Source of the DNA: a virus
Length of the DNA: 31,905 nt
IMG/VR virus record: IMGVR_UViG_3300031705_000028
Coordinates: 1-31,905 of that record
Reading direction: 5' to 3' (one strand)
The notes under the pieces are model-generated. The model saw only the letters and a list, made by a program, of their open reading frames with translations. It was not told the origin of the DNA and did no database searches. The translations under genes and the position numbers were made by a program. Shown one piece after another: positions 3,233 through 31,560 of this stretch; the stretch's first letter is position 1, and each line of letters opens with the position of its first letter.

Positions 3233-6200
3233 TTAATTAAATGAATCTATTATTGTTGTTATTACCCCCTGCACCTTTACATGGTCGTACCCTTCGTACA
3301 TAAACTTTACTCTTACTCCTTTATCTCTTACTCTTGCTCCCTCTACTGTTGCAACCTCGATATAAAGTTCATCTTCTATGTAGTCCATAGTTTGGTGTAT
3401 TATACCGAATTCTATATGGTCGAAACCCCATGTTGTGGGAAGCTGTGTTGAGACAATGATACCTAAATTATTTAGAACCTCATTGTAGTACAGCCCGGAA
3501 TCTAAAAAGCTAATTCCTATTATGTACGTCACCCCTAGGTGAACCACAAATCCTCCTGCGATACGCTCTGACTCCTCTTTGCTAATAGGTATCAGTCCAT
3601 CTGTTGATACAGAGGTGAAACACGCCGCACCGTTTATAACCGATGTAGTTATATCACTACCCACTGACTGTAGTGGCTCATGGTAACGTTTCATTAGCTG
3701 AACAGTAGAGCTATTAGTGGTTGCGAATGATTCGAAGTCCACTAGCCCATCTGCTGTTGTGTACGTTACACGCCCCGGAAATGCGTAGTTTGTAATCGCC
3801 TGCATGTTAGTTATTATTTTCTGAACGTGCGGGTCAGCAGCTAGGATAAACTCAAAGATAAATTTACCTTGGTTTCCATAAACATGACACGTAGGAACTA
3901 AATCTGAGAAATGACTCCATACGTTGTTACCGTTTATCAGGTCAAACGAGTTTAGCTTATCCCCTATGTTGAACATAATACTGGGACTGTATGATAGTCT
4001 AGACACCCACGATGCTGTCGTCTTATTATAGTACACACTAGAATACTCCCCTTTAGTTTCTGCGCCTAATAAGTGTCTTATGACTCCTTTAGATACTGCA
4101 GGATTTAACGGATCCTCTCTTGAAATCGTGGAGAACGCCTCCTCATATGTATCTAACAGGATGGGCGTCTCAGGAACTGTGTAGAAAGAAAACACTACGT
4201 CGTTAAGAACTTTATCAAAGTTACCTACAACCTTAGGCTCCAGCCCGCCTAAAGCTTCCTTGTACTCACGTATAATAGTTGAGACGTTGAAGTCACTAAT
4301 AATAGAGAATGCACCTTGAACTACGGCCCAGACTTTCCCGCTACTATAATCCATACCGTACAAAACGTCCCCTGTATTAACTATACTATATGGGTCTTTA
4401 CTCCCGTAGTTATAACTAATTATATTTAGTTTCGATCCTAGAACCTGTGCGTCATCTATATAAACAGATGCGGATCCTCCATCACCTGTAACCATTGTTC
4501 TTTCGTTGAATGGTATAATACCAACCCCGTTGGTAAACACCACTATAACAGTATTACTAACCACCTCTAACTTAACTATCGATCCAAGCTCATCACCATA
4601 GTCTCTAAAGTTAAGCCCAGAAAAATCGCTGTAGCCATTTTTAAACTCTTTTGTTATATTTGCTTTTGATACAATAACTCTGTTTCTATATCTAGAATTA
4701 CTTGTAGGGTCTGTTATATTGAACATGTGCTTCGGTAATCCTTCGTTGTACGTGTACCCAAAGTTTAATAACCTACTGTCCCCAGCCGCCTTACCTCTAA
4801 GGCTCGCAACAGACTCCATCGGGTGAAAACTTTTAGTCTTACCTGAATCCTCTTTATCCACGTCTACAAGTCTAGTGAAAATGTTAGCATTGTGCTCCGC
4901 AACCAGAGGAAACACAAAACCCTTATTTACACTTCCCGCATCTTCGTTCCCTGTATTGAATAGACTTGCATCCCCTTCTCCTGTTCCGGGCAGTCCTTTC
5001 TTTCTATAAGGCATTATACTGGCCTTACCTAGAAAGCAGTCGCCATCCAAAACTTTGATATCGGGTGATGTAACCCTACTCCACGAGAATCTCTTTGTGG
5101 CTTGCGTGTACGTGGTTCCAAATATACTCGACCCATACTTAGCTTTCCAAGCGGTCTCAGATAGTATTCCTTCTCTTCCGTTATATATTTTTGCTGTTAC
5201 ACCGAAATTAAACCCATCATGCATTCTCTTATTGAATCTCTGCATAGGTTTTGATGTAATAATTTTATTGGCTCTGTCTACTATAGTAGGATACAGATCC
5301 GAAACATGTTTAACAGTCGAAGGATATGATGCCACTAACGACGCATCATTACTAAGTGCAGCTAATAGTGGAGAGTATTGGTACCCAGTGAAGTTAACCC
5401 CTATGTAACTATTGAAGTTACACATAGATGTGTAAAATGATCCTCCAGTTTGCTTACCAGGTAATGATGCTTCTACGTGTACATTATTCTCTGCTACATC
5501 TAAAAAGTCTGTGAATGATAGCATATCAATATGCTCTAATGCACCTCTTTCGTAGTATAATGCTCTATCTGAAACAGAAGAGAAGTTACCAGGACCTGAA
5601 ATCGTTCCATCACTGATCGAGGTTGCTGTAATATTGTATGGTACATCCCATGTAGGGCCTGAGTTTGTGCATTTGGTTTCAGTGAACTGTACCGGACCAG
5701 TAAATAACATCTCTGCGGGTATAACCCCAGGAGTATCTACGGATGCACTCCCATGTGTCATTGCTTCGTATGTGTATATAGTGGGAGACTCGTGGGTTCT
5801 CTTAAATGATGATGTCTTATTTAGTCCGTCCTTTAGCGTGTACTCCTTACCTGAGAGTACATCTTTTAGAACAATAGTCTCAGCACGTAGTTCCCATAAC
5901 GTTATCTCGTGGTCTATCCCAGATGCGGCCGACCCGTCGATACCACTTGACTCCAACCCAGTCACGGATACAATATTATAATCGTCCCCGATACTTTTAT
6001 GCAGCGTGTCAGAATCGTTAATACCTGCACTTCCATCCCCAGTTATAACAGAGGGGTCTGTAAATTTTATATCTAAATATGTTTCTATATCTTTGAAGTC
6101 AGGGTATATTGTTTCTTCCTTATATCGTACAGTACAATTAACTCGTATCATACCGAACGAAGCGCCGACAGCAGGTATAACCACGTATGCAGTCATCTTA

Positions 6201-8341
6201 CCCACGGCCTTTATTTGTGTTCTACCATCACTGGGCGATCCTAGCTTATTCGCAAATGTGTGCACCGAGGTGTAGTTAAATATCTCCACAGTACCTCCGG
6301 TAGAATCGTTTATAGCGGATCCTCCAGCTTCTATATTCTTCATTACTACTGTATCCCCTAACGTCAGACCTACTTGTGTAGCATTTAACCTGGTATTAAG
6401 TTCTTCATCTAGTAGTAGTCCGTCACCGCTATAAAAGGCAAAATCCTCTCCTTTATTCTCATTGATATACAATGGCTTCGATACAACACCCTGCAACATA
6501 ACAGATTTGTTAATATTATTGAGGTTGAATTGGGACTGCAGTGATACCTCCTGTATTCTACCTGGCGCGGGAAATGTGCTCCAACCAGAGTCTAGTCGTT
6601 CCAGGTGGTTAACATTCTTTCCTATCCCTTCACATACAGGATGTACGTTTTTATTTATACTGTGTAATATATTTAATTCAAATACCTCCCTACTTGTGCC
6701 TGTGTAGTGGTTTCCCTCTGATGATACACTCTGAGTACTAGACTCGTGGTACGTGTTGGTTAGCATACCTTGGACTATACAATCCCGAACTCTTAATCTT
6801 TTTACAATAAAAAATCCTGCCGTTTCTTCCTTGAACCAGGCAGATGCGAGTAAATTAGCTACGTTTACATGAAGATGTAGTAGTTCCCCGGTTTTTAGAT
6901 CCGCATTAAGCAGCGACCTACCTTTTTTAGTTCTGAATATACCTAACCTGTTTTCGGTTGTTCCTGCTTTAAACCCGTCCAACTCATTTATTGTGTCGTA
7001 CGTATACGTAGATCCGGCCACATTATCTATACCTCTTAATGGGAACGCGGGTGATTCCCCTCGACCACCAGATAATATACATACCATAGCAAGTTCGTAC
7101 GTCTCTGAGGACCACACACCTAAGTTATAGTATAAGTTCATAGGGTCCCCATAACTCTCATCAGCGTCAACAACGTTTATACTAGATGATACCTGTGAAA
7201 TACCAACACCGGCAATAAGGTCAGCCATTCGTCTGTAGTCCGTACTTGGTGATGAGATATTACCTAGAACCAATGTTTGGTCTATTTGTATTCCTGATGC
7301 CGACTCATTGAATGATGAGAATGAAAGATTTAACATCTCCAGATCCATATCCTGAAAATCTTCGTACCCTGTGATTACTAACTCTAAACTACTACTTATA
7401 ATTGGGTATATTCTATTAATATGTTGCGCTACTACAGACTCGTTAACCTCTGAAGATACTTTGGTGATAGATACATCCAAGAATGAGTATCTAGTGTCTA
7501 AGAAGCTTAGCGCAAGTCTTATTGTCTTACCTGTGTTTTCTGTTGATGTTTGACCGAACCCATTAAAAACATGCACGGGTAAAGATGACTCTATAACATC
7601 TGTGGTGTTACCGTCTGTATCTGCGTACCTAACGTGGACTCTGTAAGACCCTCCAGGTAACGACCCTCCTGAACCTAATCCTAGGAATTCTAGGTTTGGT
7701 ACCAAGTCTGTCTTTCTAATTAATTCTGTAAGAATAAATGATGATGCCGAGTACGTATTTCCATCCGTAACTTGATCTCTATCCCCTAAGGTAACCATAC
7801 TGCCATTAATTCTCATACGACTGTTTATGATCCTAGTCGTGTTACTCTTATCTATAATAACTATATTAACTGTATCATCATAAGACGACTGTAACTCCAA
7901 TTCCAGCCTGTGACCGAAATCTGCGAAGTTAAATTTATTTGTTCTGAATGGTAGTACTCTCTGCGCGTCTAAGGTCCCACTAACACTAAAGTTGTGTAAT
8001 GGGCTGTACTTGTCCTCTAGAGGGGCTGTACCAGTTGTATTTAGTACATCCCAATCCGGCGATGGATATGTTCCTACCTCCCCTTGTAAAAAGGTACCGT
8101 CTGCGTTATATGTAGCTGATACGATGTATGCTATCTCATCTAACACCTTCACTCCGACAGGGGTGAATCCTTCAGTAAGTTTTACGCTTGTGTGAGCCCC
8201 TTTTTTATTATGTAATACGAGCTGATTGGATCCTTCGGTAATAAAAGCAGCATTAACTGCGTCCACTATTATCCCGGCTTGGTCCCCTAATTGGTTTATA
8301 TCCGAGTTTAGTTTGTTGAATGTATTAGTTACTTTTTTCAT
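3233..8341 (-). CDS. Very large tail protein, crAss-like 'muzzle'-type (1702 aa)
   Basis: This is the largest gene of the window, encoding 1702 residues. Its N-terminus contains DAVNAAF (27-33), then LTEGFTPVGVKVLDEIAYIV and GEVGTYPSPDW (87-97). This layout resembles the N-terminus of the large stump or 'muzzle' proteins of crAss-like phages, which begin with an xNAV/xNAx segment followed by a propeller-like region. The rest is a mosaic of beta-rich segments without signal peptide or membrane helices. In Crassvirales the muzzle forms the distal part of the short tail. Here the gene follows the connector genes and precedes the fibres, exactly where a tail-tip protein is expected. It overlaps the upstream 249-aa gene by 17 bases. 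The identification comes from position, size and remembered sequence pattern. It could instead be another large tail-needle or internal virion protein. Confidence 0.65.
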   Translation of the reverse strand: MKKVTNTFNKLNSDINQLGDQAGIIVDAVNAAFITEGSNQLVLHNKKGAHTSVKLTEGFTPVGVKVLDEIAYIVSATYNADGTFLQGEVGTYPSPDWDVLNTTGTAPLEDKYSPLHNFSVSGTLDAQRVLPFRTNKFNFADFGHRLELELQSSYDDTVNIVIIDKSNTTRIINSRMRINGSMVTLGDRDQVTDGNTYSASSFILTELIRKTDLVPNLEFLGLGSGGSLPGGSYRVHVRYADTDGNTTDVIESSLPVHVFNGFGQTSTENTGKTIRLALSFLDTRYSFLDVSITKVSSEVNESVVAQHINRIYPIISSSLELVITGYEDFQDMDLEMLNLSFSSFNESASGIQIDQTLVLGNISSPSTDYRRMADLIAGVGISQVSSSINVVDADESYGDPMNLYYNLGVWSSETYELAMVCILSGGRGESPAFPLRGIDNVAGSTYTYDTINELDGFKAGTTENRLGIFRTKKGRSLLNADLKTGELLHLHVNVANLLASAWFKEETAGFFIVKRLRVRDCIVQGMLTNTYHESSTQSVSSEGNHYTGTSREVFELNILHSINKNVHPVCEGIGKNVNHLERLDSGWSTFPAPGRIQEVSLQSQFNLNNINKSVMLQGVVSKPLYINENKGEDFAFYSGDGLLLDEELNTRLNATQVGLTLGDTVVMKNIEAGGSAINDSTGGTVEIFNYTSVHTFANKLGSPSDGRTQIKAVGKMTAYVVIPAVGASFGMIRVNCTVRYKEETIYPDFKDIETYLDIKFTDPSVITGDGSAGINDSDTLHKSIGDDYNIVSVTGLESSGIDGSAASGIDHEITLWELRAETIVLKDVLSGKEYTLKDGLNKTSSFKRTHESPTIYTYEAMTHGSASVDTPGVIPAEMLFTGPVQFTETKCTNSGPTWDVPYNITATSISDGTISGPGNFSSVSDRALYYERGALEHIDMLSFTDFLDVAENNVHVEASLPGKQTGGSFYTSMCNFNSYIGVNFTGYQYSPLLAALSNDASLVASYPSTVKHVSDLYPTIVDRANKIITSKPMQRFNKRMHDGFNFGVTAKIYNGREGILSETAWKAKYGSSIFGTTYTQATKRFSWSRVTSPDIKVLDGDCFLGKASIMPYRKKGLPGTGEGDASLFNTGNEDAGSVNKGFVFPLVAEHNANIFTRLVDVDKEDSGKTKSFHPMESVASLRGKAAGDSRLLNFGYTYNEGLPKHMFNITDPTSNSRYRNRVIVSKANITKEFKNGYSDFSGLNFRDYGDELGSIVKLEVVSNTVIVVFTNGVGIIPFNERTMVTGDGGSASVYIDDAQVLGSKLNIISYNYGSKDPYSIVNTGDVLYGMDYSSGKVWAVVQGAFSIISDFNVSTIIREYKEALGGLEPKVVGNFDKVLNDVVFSFYTVPETPILLDTYEEAFSTISREDPLNPAVSKGVIRHLLGAETKGEYSSVYYNKTTASWVSRLSYSPSIMFNIGDKLNSFDLINGNNVWSHFSDLVPTCHVYGNQGKFIFEFILAADPHVQKIITNMQAITNYAFPGRVTYTTADGLVDFESFATTNSSTVQLMKRYHEPLQSVGSDITTSVINGAACFTSVSTDGLIPISKEESERIAGGFVVHLGVTYIIGISFLDSGLYYNEVLNNLGIIVSTQLPTTWGFDHIEFGIIHQTMDYIEDELYIEVATVEGARVRDKGVRVKFMYEGYDHVKVQGVITTIIDSFN

Positions 8342-14247: not shown

Positions 14248-15663
14248 TTAGAAAATAACAGCTTCCTCTAAGATAAATGCTGCATAAGGGTTAAAAATAA
14301 CCGCTCCTGAGTATCCCATTAATCCGTAAGCACCACCGTGAGTCATTGATGAAACAACACCACTTGATTTACCGTTGTCTCCACCCATTCCGTGTAAGTT
14401 ACCTGAAATTAAATCAGCTCCCTCTAACGTGAACATTGAAACATTTGGCGAACCTGTTACAGTATCAGCAGACGTATCTAAAAAGATTCCGTAAGCACCA
14501 TTTGGTTTCCATGAAGATAATGATCTATCTGGCATGAAGTTTAATGTATTACCTTGGAATGTGTAAGAATTGAAGTCTCCACCAACTTTTACAGTATCTC
14601 CTGCAGCTTTCGAGTAGAAAGAAGCTCCTTCACCATTTGGCATGAAGTTTAATCCTGATCTCATTAATCTACCAACTAATGTGTAAAGTCTTTCGTTACA
14701 GATAACTGCGTAGATGTTTCCTTTAGATTTAGTCGATTGATCTCTCATAGACTGCATAACGTTATCAAAAATATCCGCTGTTAATACAGAGAACGAATAT
14801 TTGTTACAACATCTTTCGATTTGTGTAATAACACCGTCTCCCATAGGGATATCTCTACCGTCTTCTTCTTGATCTAAACACTTACCATTGATATCGTAGT
14901 TAGTTTCAGAAAATAAACTTGAGTTCTCTCTAGTTTCTAAAAATGCATCTAAACACATTTTCTCTTTTTCATTTAATTTACAGTATGCATCTTTGTTCTT
15001 AAGATCATCTCCTTGTAATAAGTAAACATCTTGTAAGATAGCAGCAGAACCTGAATACTCAATCTCTTCTCTGTGAAGAGTTAAATAATTTCTGTGTAAT
15101 TCTGTGTTAGTTGTATATCTTCTATACCCCTTAGTCGACATTTCTGGGTGATGATTAGAAATGTATCTAGTGCTTTTACCTTTAGCAGCAAAAGCTAAGT
15201 TAATACCTCTTGTAAGAGAGTTACCTGTAATAACTACAGTATAATCCCAAACCTTAGTAGTAAGCTTTACTGGCTTTCTAGTAACTCTTAACATTTGACC
15301 GTTCTCTAAAGCGAAAACATCATGCTTGTTAAAATATTTTTCTTCTAACTTAATAGAAACAGGTAGTTTCCCTACACCTGCACCAGAGATATCTCCAACA
15401 ATCTTCACCCTTTTGATTTTATTCGGGTTAACTTTCCACTGCATACTCATAGAGTTGATAGGAGTGAATGAGTTAGGAGCTTGTTTTTTGTTATAGTATA
15501 CATTGATCAACGCTTCTGTTAAAGTAGTAATTGATAAATGGTCATACATAGTAACCACTGTGTTTAACATGTGGGGCTTATTACCTAACATTGTCCCCAT
15601 GTTTTGAATTGTAACTGTATCAGAAATATTCTGGTGGACAGTTGATTGGTCAATAATTCTCAT
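14248..15663 (-). CDS. Major capsid protein (471 aa)
   Basis: A 471-residue protein directly downstream of a probable scaffold gene and two positions before the end of the head cluster. Its size is close to that of crAss-like major capsid proteins (about 490 aa). It has an N-terminal helical arm (MRIIDQSTVHQNISDTVTIQ), a segment with NPNKIKRVKIVGDISGAGVG, and a C-terminal region rich in Gly/Ala/Phe/Tyr (GGAYGLMGYSGAVIFNPYAA). Codon choice is more strongly biased than in neighbouring genes, and a strong terminator follows at once, both expected of the most abundant virion protein. An HK97-type fold is inferred from the phage type and was not derived from a visible motif. The start at 15663 follows an AATAATAAATAT leader without Shine-Dalgarno sequence. 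Confidence 0.82.
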   Translation of the reverse strand: MRIIDQSTVHQNISDTVTIQNMGTMLGNKPHMLNTVVTMYDHLSITTLTEALINVYYNKKQAPNSFTPINSMSMQWKVNPNKIKRVKIVGDISGAGVGKLPVSIKLEEKYFNKHDVFALENGQMLRVTRKPVKLTTKVWDYTVVITGNSLTRGINLAFAAKGKSTRYISNHHPEMSTKGYRRYTTNTELHRNYLTLHREEIEYSGSAAILQDVYLLQGDDLKNKDAYCKLNEKEKMCLDAFLETRENSSLFSETNYDINGKCLDQEEDGRDIPMGDGVITQIERCCNKYSFSVLTADIFDNVMQSMRDQSTKSKGNIYAVICNERLYTLVGRLMRSGLNFMPNGEGASFYSKAAGDTVKVGGDFNSYTFQGNTLNFMPDRSLSSWKPNGAYGIFLDTSADTVTGSPNVSMFTLEGADLISGNLHGMGGDNGKSSGVVSSMTHGGAYGLMGYSGAVIFNPYAAFILEEAVIF

Positions 15664-18654: not shown

Positions 18655-18795
18655 TTAATCCTTTTTGTACTGGTTTATAAACCTTTTTATATTCTCTATT
18701 GATCCGAAATGCTTTATCCACACCCGGTTGAAGATCTGCTGCTCATTCACAGTCACAACAGTCTTACTGTTTAGTTTAATCTTGAATCGTTTCAT
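18655..18795 (-). CDS. Small basic protein (46 aa) hidden between portal and 361-aa genes
   Basis: A 46-codon frame fills the space between portal and the 361-aa gene. It begins MKRFKIKLNSKTVVTVNEQ and ends with FINQYKKD. The ATG at 18795-18793 overlaps the portal stop as ATGA, and its TAA is 1 base before the next ATG. This tight fit on both sides is the best evidence that it is a real gene. The product is basic, with a beta-type start followed by a helix (QIFNRVWIKHFGSIENIKRF). The function is unknown. It may be a small portal- or capsid-associated protein. Confidence 0.65.
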   Translation of the reverse strand: MKRFKIKLNSKTVVTVNEQQIFNRVWIKHFGSIENIKRFINQYKKD

Positions 18796-21143
18796 TGTAA
18801 TTCGTTTCTTATCTCCGCTGCCTTACCCGAACCTTCTTCCATCTGCTGTTCCTCAAGCTCAAGAAGCTTATCCGTCTTTTCAACATCAGCCGCTAGTTTA
18901 TTATCATCTGTCTCTTTTCTATCGTTGTAGTGCTTTTCTTTGATATCAAGCATTCTCATCTTAACCTCGATCTCCTTAGATTTGAAGTCATCTCTTTGTT
19001 GTTCCAGCTGGTTTATCTTATTAGTAAGCTTAGTTATCTCTTCAGCTGTTGCCTCGCTTTGTTGGATAGACTGATCTACTTGTTGCTGTAATTGTGATGT
19101 TGTATCATTAAGTAGCCTTTGTGCTGTCGCACTGCCTTCTACCATATCAATTATAGCTTTAGGAGAATCCTCCATTATAATCTTAACCAATACATCCGAC
19201 TCTATTAAATTGGACTGTATCAACTGAGGCACTGCCTCGGTGATCCTAAGTAGTTTCTTCTTATCTTCTGTGGAGTCTGTTACGTAAACATTAAAATCTG
19301 TATAACAAAAATCCTCCGCCCTGATGTCAAAATAGACTTGTGAGTCGCCTAGGATGTAATAACCACGCTTTCCCTTTTTATATGATATCTTAGCTGCGTT
19401 AATAAAGTCACCTATTGTGTGTTCCTGTACTTGTGTCATTAAACTAAATAAATCTTTAGTCATTAACGACACATTCCTTTGACCCATCTTAACGTTACTA
19501 ACGGCATCTCTAACCTCAGTAGCTTGGTACATGAACCTATTTATACCTGAAAGAACATCTGCCTCTCGTTGTATACCCTCTAGTACCATCTCCAGCTGTT
19601 GTAGACTTGCACCGTCAAGTGAAGATGCATATGTCCCATATTGTTGAAACAATTCTGCCCCCGGCTCAGTAGGATCATAAAGTTCCATACCCTGCTTCTT
19701 GTAGAATTGGAATGCCATTAATCTTTCTGTAAATGTGTCTCCTAACGCTTTCGGTATAGCGGCCATATTTATTCTAGATCCACTCACACCTGCATTAGCT
19801 ATAATGTTATCCCTAAAAAATCTTACAATGTCAGACATATCCTGACAATCTTTAAGTGCTAAAGCTGCTGAATAAGGGTTTCCCCCTCTAGCGCCATACT
19901 CAAAACCATTGTAAGATAGTGTACAGCTCCAAGGCATTCCCTCACTCCTAGATACGTTTTTACTCCTACCTAGGTTGATGTATACATCAGAATCTATACG
20001 GATACCTTCGTACCTGTCTAGTCTCGCGGCGGTATTCTTTACAGTACCTAAACCTGATCTATTCTTTTTATCGTACTCAGATACATTATCCTTGTCTTTA
20101 TGTGTTATAGATTCTACCGTTTGGTAATCATCCTTATCTTCCTCGTTTACCTCTATGAAGTTGTTCGCTAGGAATTCTACATGATGCACAGCGTGCAGAT
20201 GCTGTCCGGACGTTCCCTGACCTCCCTCTACTGCTGCATTACCTGTAACCCTAACACCTACTCGTTGTTGGTTTGCTCTAGATAATGATAACCTAGAACT
20301 AAGTGCTTCTTTATCTTGGTCACTTAAAGTGTGACCCCACTGACTTAGAACCTCTGATGTAGATAGATATTCGATATGAACAGCGGCTGTAGCGTTTGGT
20401 TTATTACCTGTAGATAAGAACTGCTCCCCCGTCTTTTTGTTAGAAAAGAAATTCTCTGGTCTAATCACTGTAAGCTCTGGATCCAACCCAACTCTCTCAA
20501 CACCTATTTTATAATACCCCTCACCAGCCATTAAAACATCCATAAAGAATAGTTTCATTTTCTGTTTAAAGTTTATAGTTGTGTCAAGACGTAAGAATTT
20601 AATTAAACTTCCTGCTGCCTTATCAAATCCAGACATAAATCCTTTGTCTATTTCTGCATCGAACGCCGCGAGCTTTTTAGTTACACGCTCTGAGTATGTC
20701 TTGTTCCCTTCCTTGTCTTCTGTACCGTCTAATAGTGTTCCTTCTAACTCACTTAAGAAGAAGTCCATTTTCGCTGATACCTTCTCTGCTACCTTAGCGT
20801 CCTCCGAAATACCTATAGACTCGTTATCCGACACACTTAGTGCGTACGTGTAAGTCTCTTCTAATAGTATTCCCAGTAATATATCTATCCTAGGTTTTAC
20901 CAAGGATACCATCTTCACAGATATGGGTGTAGAAATACCAAAAACCTCTTCTAGGTAATTGAATTCCTCTGAGTCCCTTATACCACTATACAGATTTCTC
21001 GCTGTATGTATGTGGGGTTTAGCTATAACTAAAGTATTTATGTAGTGATCTACATTGTTCTTCAGGTACGTAAAATCGTTCTTCTGTGCCTCAGTAAATT
21101 TAGTGTCGTCAGTATAATGACGTGTGCCGTTATGCTCGTTCAT
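18792..21143 (-). CDS. Portal protein, crAss-like size (783 aa)
   Basis: A 783-residue protein placed between the GroES-like/terminase genes and the head genes. The size matches portals of crAss-like phages (about 780-800 aa). The first ~450 residues have alternating helices and strands, including VKPRIDILLGILLEE, an aromatic portal-type wing start, and ENFFSNKKTGEQFL. Residues ~560-600 contain SGINRFMYQATEVRDAVSN, matching the portal stem/clip region where a helix precedes QRNVSLMTKDLFSLM. The last ~117 residues (667-783) form a long coiled coil rich in Gln, Glu and Lys, probably the barrel inside the capsid. Portals form the dodecameric ring through which the terminase drives DNA. The identification rests on size, architecture and neighbours. 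Confidence 0.82.
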   Translation of the reverse strand: MNEHNGTRHYTDDTKFTEAQKNDFTYLKNNVDHYINTLVIAKPHIHTARNLYSGIRDSEEFNYLEEVFGISTPISVKMVSLVKPRIDILLGILLEETYTYALSVSDNESIGISEDAKVAEKVSAKMDFFLSELEGTLLDGTEDKEGNKTYSERVTKKLAAFDAEIDKGFMSGFDKAAGSLIKFLRLDTTINFKQKMKLFFMDVLMAGEGYYKIGVERVGLDPELTVIRPENFFSNKKTGEQFLSTGNKPNATAAVHIEYLSTSEVLSQWGHTLSDQDKEALSSRLSLSRANQQRVGVRVTGNAAVEGGQGTSGQHLHAVHHVEFLANNFIEVNEEDKDDYQTVESITHKDKDNVSEYDKKNRSGLGTVKNTAARLDRYEGIRIDSDVYINLGRSKNVSRSEGMPWSCTLSYNGFEYGARGGNPYSAALALKDCQDMSDIVRFFRDNIIANAGVSGSRINMAAIPKALGDTFTERLMAFQFYKKQGMELYDPTEPGAELFQQYGTYASSLDGASLQQLEMVLEGIQREADVLSGINRFMYQATEVRDAVSNVKMGQRNVSLMTKDLFSLMTQVQEHTIGDFINAAKISYKKGKRGYYILGDSQVYFDIRAEDFCYTDFNVYVTDSTEDKKKLLRITEAVPQLIQSNLIESDVLVKIIMEDSPKAIIDMVEGSATAQRLLNDTTSQLQQQVDQSIQQSEATAEEITKLTNKINQLEQQRDDFKSKEIEVKMRMLDIKEKHYNDRKETDDNKLAADVEKTDKLLELEEQQMEEGSGKAAEIRNELQ

Positions 21144-21150
21144 CTACAGA

Positions 21151-21711
21151 TTACTTTTTAAATGTGAATAGCGCTTGGTGATCGTGCAGTACCTTAAGTC
21201 TGTCTGCAATTAAATCACCTGAGTAGGGGTCAAACGCGATGTTATCTCCTACAACTAGTTTAGTAACTTTCTCTCCTACAGACACAACAGTCCCTCTTTG
21301 GGTTGCTTGATCTCTCGGGTTCGCTGCTGAATCATCAAAAACACCGTCTCTTACAAGACCTTCTTCGTGTATTTCAATCAACACTCTATCCTCTGTAGGT
21401 TGAATTTCTTCCTTCTTCATATTGTAAATATCTTTTACTTTTGCTAATACCATAGGAGTTCTTAAAACTTTAGTTAAATAAGAATCTGTATCTATATGGT
21501 AACCAGAAAGTTGGTTTATAATAACCTGGTCTCCCGGGATATATGATTTATCGCCACAACTTAAGACACTTCCCATATAATAGGCTGAGTGTAACTTGTT
21601 AGCAACAGGCGCATCACCGATAATAACCCCACCTTCCTCAGTTGGAGTCTTAAGAATTTCTACTACTGTGTGATCGCCTAAAGCAACCACGGAATCTTTA
21701 TTTATCGACAT
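21151..21711 (-). CDS. Tandem GroES-like co-chaperonin (186 aa, two Cpn10 domains)
   Basis: The 186-residue protein contains two GroES/Cpn10-like domains in a row. Domain 1 (residues ~7-93) has LGDHTVVEI, a mobile-loop segment EEGGVIIGD (GGVII at 27-31), then GSVLSCG and IPGDQVIIN. Domain 2 (~101-186) has IQPTEDRVLIEI, RGTVVSVG (139-146), VVGDNIAFDPYSG and a terminal ALFTFK strand. These align block by block with E. coli GroES (PLHDRVIV, GGIVL, RGEVLAVG, VGDIVIF, DILAIV). In domain 2 the mobile loop reads RDGVFDDSA, so the GG-hydrophobic motif that contacts GroEL is lost. T4 gp31 is the classic precedent for a phage GroES homologue used in capsid folding. Position between terminase and portal, upstream of the capsid gene, suggests the same job with host GroEL. 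Confidence 0.85.
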   Translation of the reverse strand: MSINKDSVVALGDHTVVEILKTPTEEGGVIIGDAPVANKLHSAYYMGSVLSCGDKSYIPGDQVIINQLSGYHIDTDSYLTKVLRTPMVLAKVKDIYNMKKEEIQPTEDRVLIEIHEEGLVRDGVFDDSAANPRDQATQRGTVVSVGEKVTKLVVGDNIAFDPYSGDLIADRLKVLHDHQALFTFKK

Positions 21712-21772
21712 ACGTTATAATTTTCTTGTTTTTACAATGATACTAAATATAAGGCAACTGGAGAAATATTTA

Positions 21773-24055
21773 CTAAACATTCTCCCATGTCACTCCACCA
21801 TGCTCATTAAATCGTTTAGCCATGTCAGATACCATGTTAGCTTTAGCGTCCTGAACACGTTTAATATTGTTAGGGATCTCTCCACGTCTTTTTATCCCGT
21901 TTTCATCTTTATATATACCGAATAATTTAAACCCAGACGCTGAGGTCTCCACTGGGGGTTTAGCTACAACAACTAAATCCTCATCTAGTAATTCACAAAG
22001 ACCCATAGCTATGACTAAATCGGAGGGTGTTCTATTCTCTCTATTGTACGCCTGTAACTGTGTTAAGGCTTCTGGAAACCAAATGTCGCTACAATTATCA
22101 TTTATGTAATCAGCTACTTTCTGATCTTGATAATCTATGATCCCTGATCCTGTGGTAGTACCTATCAATGTTGACGCTTTCTTCTTATCTGTTTTCGGTA
22201 GGTTTATAGCTGTTCTACGAGCGAATTTATGTAGAAACCCTTCGGATTCAAAGTATATTTTTATACCCACCTTAGTGAATTCCAGGTTTATCTGTGCATT
22301 AAAGTACATAGAAAGTTTTAGTGTATTCTCCCAGTCATCCCTAACGTTGTTAGATCTTTTATTATAAAGACCTACGTATATATTAGATGTTGTACTGAAA
22401 TAACTTCCCTCTAGGAACCTCTTCTTAACCATAGCACAAAGCTCTGATCCTGTAGTAGAGTTGGTGGCCGCGGAAGAATCCGAGTTACCTTGATCTATAC
22501 TATCACATCCTATAATGTACAGATTCTCTATTGGATTAGGGTATTTATCAGGGTTGGTCAACCATACAGGATGCTCCATTATCTTCATATCCCCCACGTT
22601 ACTGTCCTCCCATTTAACTCCAAGTCTTTCTCCGTTAGGTCCTTTAACCCAAGTAAGAAACCCTCTAATAGGTTTAGACACTTCATCCTCAGTACCAAAC
22701 TGTATTTTAGACTGCTGTGTAGCTATTTTATCTTGATCAAATATGTTTGATCCGTTTTGCATAAACATCTCTGTTGGATTAGTTGGGTACTCCTGTACTT
22801 CCCCCATATATGCAACGGCGTCTGATTTCACCGCTTTTCTTTTAGCTGCTGACGTTAGTAGTGATTTAGTGATGTCCGGTGTTCCTGTTCTCTCCCAATG
22901 ACCCGCCATCTTAAGTTGTACTGGTATAAACGCACCACAACCACGATCACCCATCTCTGGCCAATCGTTTACCTTTAGTATATTGTACGCATCAGGGTTA
23001 GTGAATACATCACGAGCCTCGTCGTTATTAACAGACCCTCCTGTCCCAGTATATAGCACGGTACATTTTTTGTACGTACCTCCAATGAACCACGAACCCT
23101 TACTCCCGGCGATAACCCCTTTAAGATTACCTTTATGTGTTTTAGGTGGAAACGCTGCGAACTCCTCTATATGCTGAATATTTGGTCTACTACCTCTTGT
23201 TTTATCTGTACTCTTATCGTAAATAATTTTTTCTATAAGAGATTTATACCCTCGTTTCTTCTCATCACCGCTGGAATCTATAAACGTTTCACCAGATAGT
23301 TTCTTATCTCCTGTATCCGAAATTCTTTTATGTTTTAATGGGGGATGTTTCTCCTCTACAAGATCTAAACAATCCACCACTTTTCTCCATGCCTCATTGG
23401 TCATGTGTGAGTCTGTACTCGTCACTAACGTGTGAGTCTTCTTAAATATTCTGTAATATTGGTCTATGATAGATATAATCGCGTACGACTTACCTATACC
23501 CCTGGAACCCATTAGAGCAAAATCCTTTCCTGTTAATATAGCTTTATAGATCAAATCAAATATGTACCTGTCTATTGTGCAGTACGTTGGACTTCCCATA
23601 ATTTCACCTAAAGGCTTTCCGTTTTTATCCGATTTGATAACAGGGAAAACGAATAGATTAAGCCAGTACATGTAGAGCGGATTATAATACTCGTCATCTA
23701 TCCACACACCGTGCTTGCAGTACTTAAGTATTTCCTTGTAAAAATCAAGCATCTCCTCAGAGTGCTCATCAACATTAGGTCTATCGGCCCAGGCGCGTAG
23801 CTTTTTAGGTAATTTCCTGAACACCAGGTAATCAGCAAGTCTTACTTCCTCTTCTCCAGTCCATACGCCGGTTAAGCGCTCCGAACTATTAGTTACGTCG
23901 AAGGTATCATTATATACTCTACCATTCTCACGCTTTAAAAAGTCTAGGTCAAACCTGTCGTACTTATTTACCGCTCTTATAGTATACTTTCTTTTGGGCC
24001 CGTTTAAGGTTTCCCCAATCGTTTCGTCCAATTTACTCATCTTTATCCTCCTCAT
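21773..24055 (-). CDS. terL: Terminase large subunit (760 aa)
   Basis: The motor that packages DNA into the procapsid and cuts concatemers. The ATPase part has Walker A GSRGIGKS (183-190) and Walker B IQHIEEFA (293-300), whose Glu pair supplies the catalytic residue. The nuclease part has LYIIGCDSIDQG (D518, D521), an acidic residue in QINLEF (E592) and PSDLVIAMGLCELL (D679), consistent with the RNase H-like metal site of terminases. The length agrees with crAss-like terminases. The start at 24055 overlaps the upstream gene by 23 bases; a second Met at residue 6 (MSKLDETIG) would shorten the overlap and is equally plausible. It is followed by the GroES-like and portal genes on the same strand and partners with the portal. 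Confidence 0.95.
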   Translation of the reverse strand: MRRIKMSKLDETIGETLNGPKRKYTIRAVNKYDRFDLDFLKRENGRVYNDTFDVTNSSERLTGVWTGEEEVRLADYLVFRKLPKKLRAWADRPNVDEHSEEMLDFYKEILKYCKHGVWIDDEYYNPLYMYWLNLFVFPVIKSDKNGKPLGEIMGSPTYCTIDRYIFDLIYKAILTGKDFALMGSRGIGKSYAIISIIDQYYRIFKKTHTLVTSTDSHMTNEAWRKVVDCLDLVEEKHPPLKHKRISDTGDKKLSGETFIDSSGDEKKRGYKSLIEKIIYDKSTDKTRGSRPNIQHIEEFAAFPPKTHKGNLKGVIAGSKGSWFIGGTYKKCTVLYTGTGGSVNNDEARDVFTNPDAYNILKVNDWPEMGDRGCGAFIPVQLKMAGHWERTGTPDITKSLLTSAAKRKAVKSDAVAYMGEVQEYPTNPTEMFMQNGSNIFDQDKIATQQSKIQFGTEDEVSKPIRGFLTWVKGPNGERLGVKWEDSNVGDMKIMEHPVWLTNPDKYPNPIENLYIIGCDSIDQGNSDSSAATNSTTGSELCAMVKKRFLEGSYFSTTSNIYVGLYNKRSNNVRDDWENTLKLSMYFNAQINLEFTKVGIKIYFESEGFLHKFARRTAINLPKTDKKKASTLIGTTTGSGIIDYQDQKVADYINDNCSDIWFPEALTQLQAYNRENRTPSDLVIAMGLCELLDEDLVVVAKPPVETSASGFKLFGIYKDENGIKRRGEIPNNIKRVQDAKANMVSDMAKRFNEHGGVTWENV

Positions 24056-24701: not shown

Positions 24702-26591
24702 TTATTTTTGTGTCATAGCCTTACCGGATCCGGTAGCCAATGTAACGCCTACTATAGCTTTGTATATATTGGGGTTACTCATACTGAATTTACCATTGTT
24801 CCCAAGCATGGATTTTGGTATATTGGAGTAAGGTGCTACCTGTATCTCTCCGGTTGCAAGAAAATCCCTCCCAGGTTGAATACTACCATTACCTCTATGT
24901 TTACCCAATGCTGCCTCTAATTTTCTATGATCTTGGAATATCTGTTCCTGAAGCTGTCTACGCTGTACTTCTGGTAATCTAACCTCCTTTGCCGTCTTGT
25001 TCATAAAGCTAAGTTTCTTGTGCATGTACTCCTGTAATTGTAGCCCATCTACTTGTTTAGTATTAGAGTTGTGGTATAAGGAATATAGTGTGCTTTCTGG
25101 GTTATATTTGCTCTTTTGCATATATACTCCTGCGTATGACCTCTCAGGAGAGGAGTATACACCCCTACCTAGTAGTTCACCTCGTGGCGCTGTGGGATCT
25201 GTATGTAAGCCTGTTTGGTGAGTAAACGAATCAAATTTATTTTTGGATCCATGGAAGTTAGTCTGTATATTACCTTTAGCATCACGAACAGGGTTGGGGA
25301 AGGCTTTAGCAAAATTTCTACTTCTCTGCTCAACAAACTGTGCTTTAATCGCCTCACTAGGGGACATTGTTACCCCATGCGAACTTAGATCCTCAATAGT
25401 AGGGCTACTGCCTTTAAATGTACTACCATCAGCGTTCTTCATCCAGGTACCATCAGCCTTAGCAACAGCCTCGATCTCTCCGTACTCCCTAAGTAATGGT
25501 TTGTCGTTTAAGATCTCTTTATTCCATTTACCCCAATCTAGTGAGGTTTCTGGTATCTCTGATCCCTTAGGCAGTGACTTATACTTGCTGGAAGGTTTAT
25601 AATCTGTCACATCTTTATACCACTTATTCCACTCTGGTAATGTTTGTGGGGGTGTTTTTACAGCCTTAGGCGTTAACATCCCTCGTCTACGCTTTAGTAA
25701 GTCATAGTATGGGTTTTTTGCTACAAACTCAGGTGTTAGGTGTCTGGGGGTACTACTTTTAACTACACCTTTAACGCTATTTAAGGGCGCCTTTACGTCG
25801 CGGACAAACTTCAGGTTATCATAATAAGCCTTTTGATTTCTTAGCTTCTTTGTTAAGAACCCTGGTACTGCATCTACAGCCTCATCTAATGCGATGTCTT
25901 TGACTGTCTCTTTAGCTAACTTATTCCTATACGCTTTAGCAATTATAGCTTTACGACTTCTATTAGCTATTACCTTCCACGCTGTGCTCGCAAGTGCTGC
26001 AGGAGGCACAAAGGGTATTGCACCCATTAAATTTACTACACCCCCTACGACATCCCCCTCTTTAAACGAATCGTGAGATTTAAACCCATGATCAGCCCAA
26101 GAATAGGGGTTTATCACCTCTAGTACACTAGTAAGCATATTGTCCTCATCAACAAGTCCAGAGTATTGTAAGGGGTTAGCCCACTTATGTAATCTAGTTC
26201 TTTGTCTTTGATACTCAGTTAGTGGTGCGCCGGGGTTACTCATAATCGGTGTAACCATATTATTTCCATCCTCAACCATCTTTTGTCTGGCTTTCTCTTT
26301 GGCCTCCTTAGCAGTCATCTTCTTTATAATAGAAGGTTTAACTACGTGAGTACTCTCAGATCTGTTAAGTTGAGGGTCGTCCAGTTCTGGGGTATATTTT
26401 ATTGTGGGTATACTGCGAATATCTGTAGGTACCTTAACTCTAGCCTCCTCTTTGATATACGCGTGAGACGCAGATGTTAAGGGAGTCAATCTTGGTTTAT
26501 ACCTCTGCTGAGTTCCCAAAGGGGTGACTACAGCAGTTTTAGGTTTAACTGGCTCTACTACTTGGTACGTCTGTATATTTCGTTGTTTCAT
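24702..26591 (-). CDS. Virion/lysis-block protein with C-terminal ADP-ribosyltransferase-like domain (629 aa)
   Basis: A 629-residue protein of at least three parts. Residues 1-140 are basic and Pro-rich, probably disordered, beginning MKQRNIQTYQ. Residues ~150-260 hold LEVINPYSWADHGF and a hydrophobic segment (GGVVNLMGAIPFVPPAALAS) that could touch a membrane. Residues ~442-612 resemble the ART-PolyVal family of ADP-ribosyltransferases: NFHGSKNKFDSF (H447), GRGVYSSPERSYAGVY (475-490), then EIQVAPYSNIPKSMLG and NNGKFSMSNPNIYK. In that family the H, the Y/S segment and an acidic residue near the end form the NAD site; E582 is the candidate here. It follows the lysozyme-domain gene, so it may be packaged and injected. 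Enzyme activity is inference; the fold could also be inactive. Confidence 0.6.
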   Translation of the reverse strand: MKQRNIQTYQVVEPVKPKTAVVTPLGTQQRYKPRLTPLTSASHAYIKEEARVKVPTDIRSIPTIKYTPELDDPQLNRSESTHVVKPSIIKKMTAKEAKEKARQKMVEDGNNMVTPIMSNPGAPLTEYQRQRTRLHKWANPLQYSGLVDEDNMLTSVLEVINPYSWADHGFKSHDSFKEGDVVGGVVNLMGAIPFVPPAALASTAWKVIANRSRKAIIAKAYRNKLAKETVKDIALDEAVDAVPGFLTKKLRNQKAYYDNLKFVRDVKAPLNSVKGVVKSSTPRHLTPEFVAKNPYYDLLKRRRGMLTPKAVKTPPQTLPEWNKWYKDVTDYKPSSKYKSLPKGSEIPETSLDWGKWNKEILNDKPLLREYGEIEAVAKADGTWMKNADGSTFKGSSPTIEDLSSHGVTMSPSEAIKAQFVEQRSRNFAKAFPNPVRDAKGNIQTNFHGSKNKFDSFTHQTGLHTDPTAPRGELLGRGVYSSPERSYAGVYMQKSKYNPESTLYSLYHNSNTKQVDGLQLQEYMHKKLSFMNKTAKEVRLPEVQRRQLQEQIFQDHRKLEAALGKHRGNGSIQPGRDFLATGEIQVAPYSNIPKSMLGNNGKFSMSNPNIYKAIVGVTLATGSGKAMTQK

Positions 26592-30859: not shown

Positions 30860-31243
30860 ATGGGATTTCAAATAAGAGATGCAAAAGGTGAAGCAATAGC
30901 TATCAACACCTTAGACAAAGAGATAGCAGTACTATGGGGAGTTGAATATCACCCCAAGAACTATGCGGTAGAAAACAGCAGGGATCACTACCCTGATACT
31001 GTGAATGGTAGTATAGATTACGCTGATCAACCTAATTGGTATGATAAGATAGGGTATAAAATCCACTCTCAAGGACTATCAATCCAAGGGGTAATCAATG
31101 ACTACAAGGAAGTTATGGTAGATCACCTGGGTAAGAAGTACAAAGACGGGTCTGTTATTACACTCGAGTCTATCTACCCAAAGGTCATGTTGTTACTAAA
31201 CACATGGTTGAATAAAGGATACACGGCACATCAAGTGGATTAA
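30860..31243 (+). CDS. Unknown early protein (127 aa)
   Basis: A 127-residue protein beginning MGFQIRDAKGEAIAINTLD. It continues with IAVLWGVEYHPKNYAV, then an aromatic segment (DQPNWYDKIGYKIHSQGLSI), and ends in a helix (SIYPKVMLLLNTWLNKGY). I recall hypothetical proteins of this general type in phages of Bacteroidota but cannot name a family. It closes the early operon that starts at 29928 and is followed by a terminator at 31252-31281. There are no membrane segments, and its role is not evident. Confidence 0.65.
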   Translation: MGFQIRDAKGEAIAINTLDKEIAVLWGVEYHPKNYAVENSRDHYPDTVNGSIDYADQPNWYDKIGYKIHSQGLSIQGVINDYKEVMVDHLGKKYKDGSVITLESIYPKVMLLLNTWLNKGYTAHQVD

Positions 31244-31251
31244 CATCAGTA

Positions 31252-31281
31252 CCCCGTGGGATATACTCACGGGTTTTCTTT
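31252..31281 (+). terminator. Rho-independent terminator of the early operon
   Basis: CCCGTG (31253-31258) pairs with CACGGG (31268-31273), and TTTTCTTT follows at once. It ends the transcript of the 162-aa to 127-aa genes 9 bases after the last stop. Confidence 0.85.
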
Positions 31282-31317
31282 AAGTACAAAAAGGTGGTGG
31301 CTAACACTAAAGATATC

Positions 31318-31560
31318 ATGAGCAAGAGAAAAAGAATGAGTACAGAGGCTACATTAGTAGCAAAGACTTACAACCCAAAGAAAAGAGTATCAGTTCCTAA
31401 CCCTGTAAAGAAACTGATAGATGCTCAAGTACAGGATAGAATCGATAGAGTGACTGCACACGCGGATAAGGTAGAACACCTTAAAGATGTATTCTTCTTC
31501 AATGGTAGGATAAGATCCATACTAAGACGTGAGCACTTAGTCTTATTCCCTTCTCACTAG
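31318..31560 (+). CDS. Small basic protein (80 aa)
   Basis: An 80-residue, very basic protein beginning MSKRKRMSTEATLVAKTYN and continuing PKKRVSVPNPVKKLIDAQV, then a charged helix (DRIDRVTAHADKVEHLKDVF) and a short end (RREHLVLFPSH). A GTG at 31294 could add 8 residues, but the ATG at 31318 is the more usual start. The basic N-terminus suggests nucleic-acid or ribosome contact, but no DNA-binding motif is recognisable. It follows a terminator closely and precedes element copy 2. Confidence 0.55.
   Translation: MSKRKRMSTEATLVAKTYNPKKRVSVPNPVKKLIDAQVQDRIDRVTAHADKVEHLKDVFFFNGRIRSILRREHLVLFPSH

Follow-up and report, generated by a model that had tools for sequence, protein, structure and literature searches.

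What might a phage gain from a co-chaperonin chain that carries two GroES domains head to tail, and why should the gene lie between those for the large terminase subunit and the portal? The question is raised by a viral record of 31,905 nucleotides (the whole stretch of DNA that was analysed, hereafter the window), which the presence of a capsid gene and of a crAss muzzle protein gene, the latter at 3233-8341, marks as a fragment of a crAss-like phage. The open reading frame concerned is genuine, running on the minus strand from an ATG start to a TAA stop and encoding 186 amino acids, and its setting is as follows:

21151..21711, minus strand: tandem Cpn10 (Cpn20-like) gene, 186 aa, assigned by Pfam, profile and predicted fold
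21773..24055, minus strand: terL, the upstream neighbour (phrog_6681, E 1.5e-55)
18792..21143, minus strand: portal gene, the downstream neighbour (phrog_6547, E 4e-37)
14248..15663, minus strand: major capsid protein gene, the proposed substrate, 471 aa (Crass_capsid PF23898, E 1.3e-18)
21728..21745, minus strand: conserved non-coding motif TAGTATCATTGTAAAAAC, just 5′ of the start codon of the tandem gene

As the tandem gene shares its strand run with terL and portal, with the start of the portal gene 7 nt past its stop, it is probably co-expressed with the head genes. The non-coding motif in front of it is the window variant of TAGTATTATATAAAC, which we found between terL and the next gene in related loci (L113:3008-3022, L226:3290-3304, L229:4997-5011 and L231:6998-7012), which is also kept in loci that lack the tandem gene and have portal directly after terL, and which in L228 occurs in its exact form at this gap and nowhere else; it is a possible promoter or RNA processing site. 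On the same strand, at 24702-26591, the window encodes a protein of 629 aa that, close to its C-terminal end, weakly matches an ADP-ribosyltransferase of the polyvalent-protein type (ART-PolyVal, E 0.005, under the cut-off).

The product of the open reading frame consists of two Cpn10/GroES domains in a single chain, referred to below as D1 and D2:

21424..21711, minus strand: D1, Cpn10 barrel, residues 1-96 (GroES HMM; AlphaFold2 model of D1 alone)
21154..21414, minus strand: D2, Cpn10 barrel, residues 100-186 (PF00166 27.5 bits alone; GroES HMM 22.6 bits)

The Pfam Cpn10 family PF00166 matched the whole protein in two stretches (E 1e-9; 38.7 bits against a cut-off of 21.1), and in the genome record it gave two hits, at 21208-21405 and 21439-21690. 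Submitted by itself, the C-terminal half exceeded the cut-off and the N-terminal half fell under it (16.7 bits, E 0.0077). As a test against chance we built a GroES HMM from 69 Bacteroidota GroES sequences and that of E. coli, which scored D1 at 13.4 bits and D2 as listed above, values reached by none of 1,945 shuffled D1 and none of 1,899 shuffled D2 sequences. An HMM built from the alignment of tandem proteins described below and compared with PDB sequences returned Cpn20 over its whole length (E 4.3e-17), followed by GroES/Cpn10. The preliminary description of this DNA had proposed a tandem GroES, and since profiles match both halves, rather than one half only, that proposal stands.

The predicted fold agrees. 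Given an alignment of the seven distinct tandem proteins of the clade, AlphaFold2 modelled the whole protein with a pLDDT of 81.5 and a pTM of 0.77, the weakest stretch being residues 25-41 in the first mobile loop, where low confidence would be expected of a disordered loop. The top solved matches of this model in Foldseek were Chlamydomonas Cpn20 and Cpn23, at full length (7ekq), and VIA-align superposed 162 residues on Cpn20 with a Z of 12.9 and an rmsd of 3.5. Modelled alone, D1 (pLDDT 80.8) had only Cpn10/GroES proteins among its best matches, with a Z of 9.3 and with T4 gp31 at 8.0, while D2 gave Z values of 8 to 10 against GroES structures. The structure prediction suggested at the outset thus returned a predicted Cpn10 fold both for the whole protein and for D1 by itself.

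Relatives of the protein emerged only through its neighbours. A search of viral contigs with the single protein found none, and a match at E 0.3 to a 4.1-kb Listeria phage record was weak and taken as chance. A single TerL query likewise returned no relatives, so that alignment queries were needed: an alignment of the window TerL with that of L113, the closest relative then known (44% identical), recovered a clade of 12 loci from uncultured crAss-like phages. Nine of these (L223 and L225-L232) carry a tandem Cpn10 between terL and portal, so that the same fusion, which the preliminary description proposed to seek beside terL and portal in crAss-like genomes, is now known from nine further contigs. 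Their tandem proteins are 199-251 aa long (186-251 aa with the window) and all score above the Pfam cut-off; removal of identical copies left six distinct sequences, seven with that of the window. The D2 domains of L225 and L231 gave no Pfam match when submitted alone, whereas each whole protein is matched in two stretches, and we read this miss as a filter effect, the unfiltered GroES HMM scoring both at 21-29 bits. An alignment of the tandem proteins, used as a query in its turn, returned two loci, both already known, and tblastn with three of them (window, L230 and L225) against 50,697 phage records brought up no credible relative. Bacterial genomes scanned with TerL in search of a host gave no match.

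In the remaining three loci of the clade (L113, L114 and L224) about 50 nt separate terL from portal and there is no Cpn10 at the site. Because the TerL tree places them inside the carrier clade, at a node with L225 and L226-L231 supported at 100/99, the simplest account is that an ancestor gained the gene and that these loci later lost or relocated it, with 22% of bootstrap trees permitting a single change for the absence of the gene; the same three loci imply that the gene is dispensable or mobile. Where it is kept, both domains are under purifying selection, dN/dS between L226 and L229 being about 0.15 (0.060/0.402), with 0.18 for D1 and 0.13 for D2. In several crAss-like relatives the terL frame itself is broken by homing-endonuclease-like ORFs, recognised by eye from motifs such as YWLGFLYADGN:

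L004:5382-6314, L117:5215-5997 and L176:5472-6317: homing-endonuclease-like ORFs within terL, by-eye motif

Among five divergent members, the D1 domains of different genomes are 31% identical and the D2 domains 32%, and D1 and D2 of the same protein share 21-32%. In a tree of single domains the D1s group together (89/93), as do the D2s (78/77), which suggests that a single duplication preceded the splitting of the clade; with domains this short (~90 residues) the support is modest. Distant crAss-like phages encode a separate single-domain Cpn10, upstream of terL in the loci inspected, often with an N-terminal extension of ~75 aa and mostly matching Pfam under the cut-off. Twelve of these formed a closed branch (100/100) with the tandem domains outside it, and we have accordingly ruled out an origin of the tandem gene by duplication or fusion of that family. 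Nor was it copied recently from a tandem gene of the host, since 148 Bacteroidota genomes yielded single-domain GroES only, including two matches in long open frames that on checking were both single GroES. The ~75-aa extension is apparently helical in the single-domain proteins near terL of L088, L091, L093, L101, L106 and L108-L112. A different chaperone component is found in L242-L245 (G036, G029, G035 and G037), crAss-like records of 169-177 kb that encode a full-length GroEL (PF00118, E 5e-52 to 2e-61).

The contact of a co-chaperonin with GroEL is made by the mobile loop, and the two loops of the window protein differ:

21589..21648, minus strand: mobile loop 1, residues 22-41, TPTEEGGVIIGDAPVANKLH, tripeptide V-I-I (loop alignment; low model confidence)
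21298..21360, minus strand: mobile loop 2, residues 118-138, GLVRDGVFDDSAANPRDQATQ, tripeptide V-F-D with an acidic third position (loop alignment)

In loop 1 the GGVII first described occupies residues 27-31, and the hydrophobic tripeptide is intact. Loop 2 does carry the DGVFDDSA noted earlier, at residues 122-129, and departs from the GGIII that prevails in this region of a Bacteroidota GroES panel; to call its GroEL-binding motif lost, however, overstates the case, as V and F stay (2/3 hydrophobic) and the third residue alone is acidic. The tripeptides of the other tandem proteins (D1 / D2) are I-F-D / I-Y-D in L223, L-I-V / I-V-V in L225, L-F-M / I-I-T in L226 and L229, I-F-M / I-I-M in L231 and L-V-V / I-Y-I in L230. 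Five of the seven distinct proteins are thus hydrophobic in both loops (3/3 throughout, save for 2/3 in D2 of L226 and L229), and the suggestion that only alternate loops touch GroEL finds no general support. A lost motif is at most confined to the window and its sister L223, and because L223 has the motif in both loops it looks, from the sequences, like a shared, lineage-specific variant, DG[IV][FY]D[DN], rather than a loss in one domain.

A second feature, absent from the preliminary description, is the roof. In the window protein the roof segments are 6 and 8 residues long, whereas E. coli GroES has 17 and 46 Bacteroidota GroES have a median of 12. L223 is the only member measured whose D1 roof is not short, and the D2 roof of L225, L226 and L231 has 14 residues. 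The mobile loops span 22-24 residues, compared with 20 for the same segment of E. coli GroES. Because both halves of the window protein are without most of the roof hairpin, the shortening points to an open dome like that of T4 gp31.

We propose that the tandem protein is a phage co-chaperonin whose rings cap the host GroEL for the folding of phage structural proteins, a reading, with GroEL binding inferred, to which we give a probability of roughly 0.7. Three or four chains would assemble into a ring with six to eight domains, and this ring would cap one ring of the seven-fold host GroEL, D1 making contact by way of its V-I-I mobile loop and D2 by way of its V-F-D loop, which would be weaker or retuned. 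An open dome would suit large or slow-folding phage structural proteins, for example the 471-aa capsid protein. Even-numbered rings appear workable, because joined GroES rings of 6-8 domains function with GroEL (PMC5780408) and Plasmodium Cpn20, mostly a tetramer, takes the place of GroES in E. coli (PMC3542282).

Other arrangements and other partners have to be weighed against this. The retuned D2 loop, which in the window and L223 reads DG[IV][FY]D[DN], would allow the tasks to be split, with D1 acting on GroEL while the D2 loop binds another partner or spares GroEL sites; alternatively, three phage chains and one host GroES subunit would make up seven domains, a mixed ring like the plastid Cpn10/Cpn20 hetero-oligomers, by which the phage would remodel the host's own lid. 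Versions of this kind seem to us doubtful. The fold might instead have been reused, independently of GroEL, in a chaperone of virion assembly or packaging that acts directly on the terminase, portal or capsid proteins, and the place of the gene between terL and portal would fit such a role, as would the acidic third residue in loop 2 of the window and in both loops of L223, which weakens the classical GroEL contact. In most members, however, the tripeptides of both loops are hydrophobic, the mobile loop has the predicted flexibility of a co-chaperonin loop, and T4 gp31 offers the precedent of a phage co-chaperonin that acts with GroEL (PMC6318259), so that we judge a role free of GroEL unlikely.

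If GroEL is the partner, it might be one encoded elsewhere in the phage's own genome rather than the host's. The window is a 32-kb piece of a genome, and 4 of 32 records searched encode a GroEL, all of them large crAss-like relatives; yet none was found in the window or in the contigs of the tandem clade, which reach 64 kb, and most large relatives are without the gene, which makes a phage-encoded partner quite unlikely. A weaker rival, which we consider very improbable, is that the tandem protein caps or inhibits the host ClpP and so shields phage proteins from proteolysis, in the manner of Chlamydomonas Cpn11/20/23. In the protein's best structural match, 7ekq, Cpn20 and Cpn23 are bound to ClpP, the co-chaperonin complex is reported to occupy one axial side of the Clp core (PMC8889267), and that article cites a paper whose title announces an inhibition of proteolysis. 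The match is nevertheless uninformative about the partner, because 7ekq holds the solved Cpn20-type chains that a sequence search also returns, and we found no feature specific to ClpP binding in the phage protein. Capping of the host GroEL therefore remains our preferred reading.

A literature search for tandem phage co-chaperonins found none, and on that search the double-GroES layout has until now been described for the Cpn20 of plastids and apicoplasts. A phage GroES is not itself new in this group, since single-domain Cpn10 is already annotated there (for example in cr6_1). A conserved phage version would add a further setting for two questions: why a lid of 2n domains serves a seven-fold chamber, and whether changes of the lid (fused subunits, reduced roof, altered loops) are driven by capsid folding. 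It would also tie head assembly in crAss-like phages to the folding machine of the host, and the small protein is suited to reconstitution with Bacteroidota GroEL.

Several known proteins invite comparison. Phage phi18:3 of Cellulophaga and its relatives (Pachyviridae) encode gp96, annotated as co-chaperonin GroES and, at 200 aa, of similar size; like the tandem gene it belongs to a phage of Bacteroidota, it aligns in Foldseek along its full length, and its gene lies two genes upstream of terL. It differs in that the C-terminal half alone matches Cpn10 by sequence, and we have set it aside as a proven tandem relative because the N-terminal half does not; no profile relation between gp96 and the tandem clade was detectable. 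A GroES of 200 aa is also present in Cellulophaga phages phi13:2, phi19:3 and phi46:3, and these proteins may be similar to the tandem protein, that of phi18:3 perhaps being a second, independent two-domain form. Phi18:3 (L248) has two GroES genes, at 31108-31362 (84 aa) and 41458-42060 (200 aa). Among public viral proteins, BFVD also contains some whose two-domain fold is similar, for example A0A516LTQ1 (183 aa). The single-domain Cpn10 of crAss-like phages (L003/L088, L013/L091) resembles the tandem gene in lying near terL, but has one domain, often the N-terminal extension, and a branch of its own.

T4 gp31 is closer in its proposed role. It has no roof loops, has longer mobile loops and is essential for the folding of gp23, a 56-kDa protein whose folding these features are thought to aid (PMC6318259). 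The window protein shares with it the character of a phage co-chaperonin, the reduced roof, the longer mobile loops and a proposed role with the capsid, whereas gp31 is a heptamer of single domains and the window protein has two fused domains per chain. In architecture the nearest counterpart is the Cpn20 of plastids and apicoplasts (Chlamydomonas Cpn20 in 7ekq, Arabidopsis Cpn20/21, Plasmodium Cpn20), which likewise has two Cpn10 domains head to tail. Both kinds of protein fall within about 190-250 aa, they match over their full length in profile and fold, and the same mismatch of six or eight domains with seven is expected for the phage protein. The latter, known here from sequence and model, would work like Cpn20 but is not classed as a plastid Cpn20: it is ~20-24% identical to the Chlamydomonas protein, its roof is short in both halves, and, unlike the plastid proteins, it is encoded by a phage within a run of head and packaging genes and begins directly at D1, with no transit peptide.
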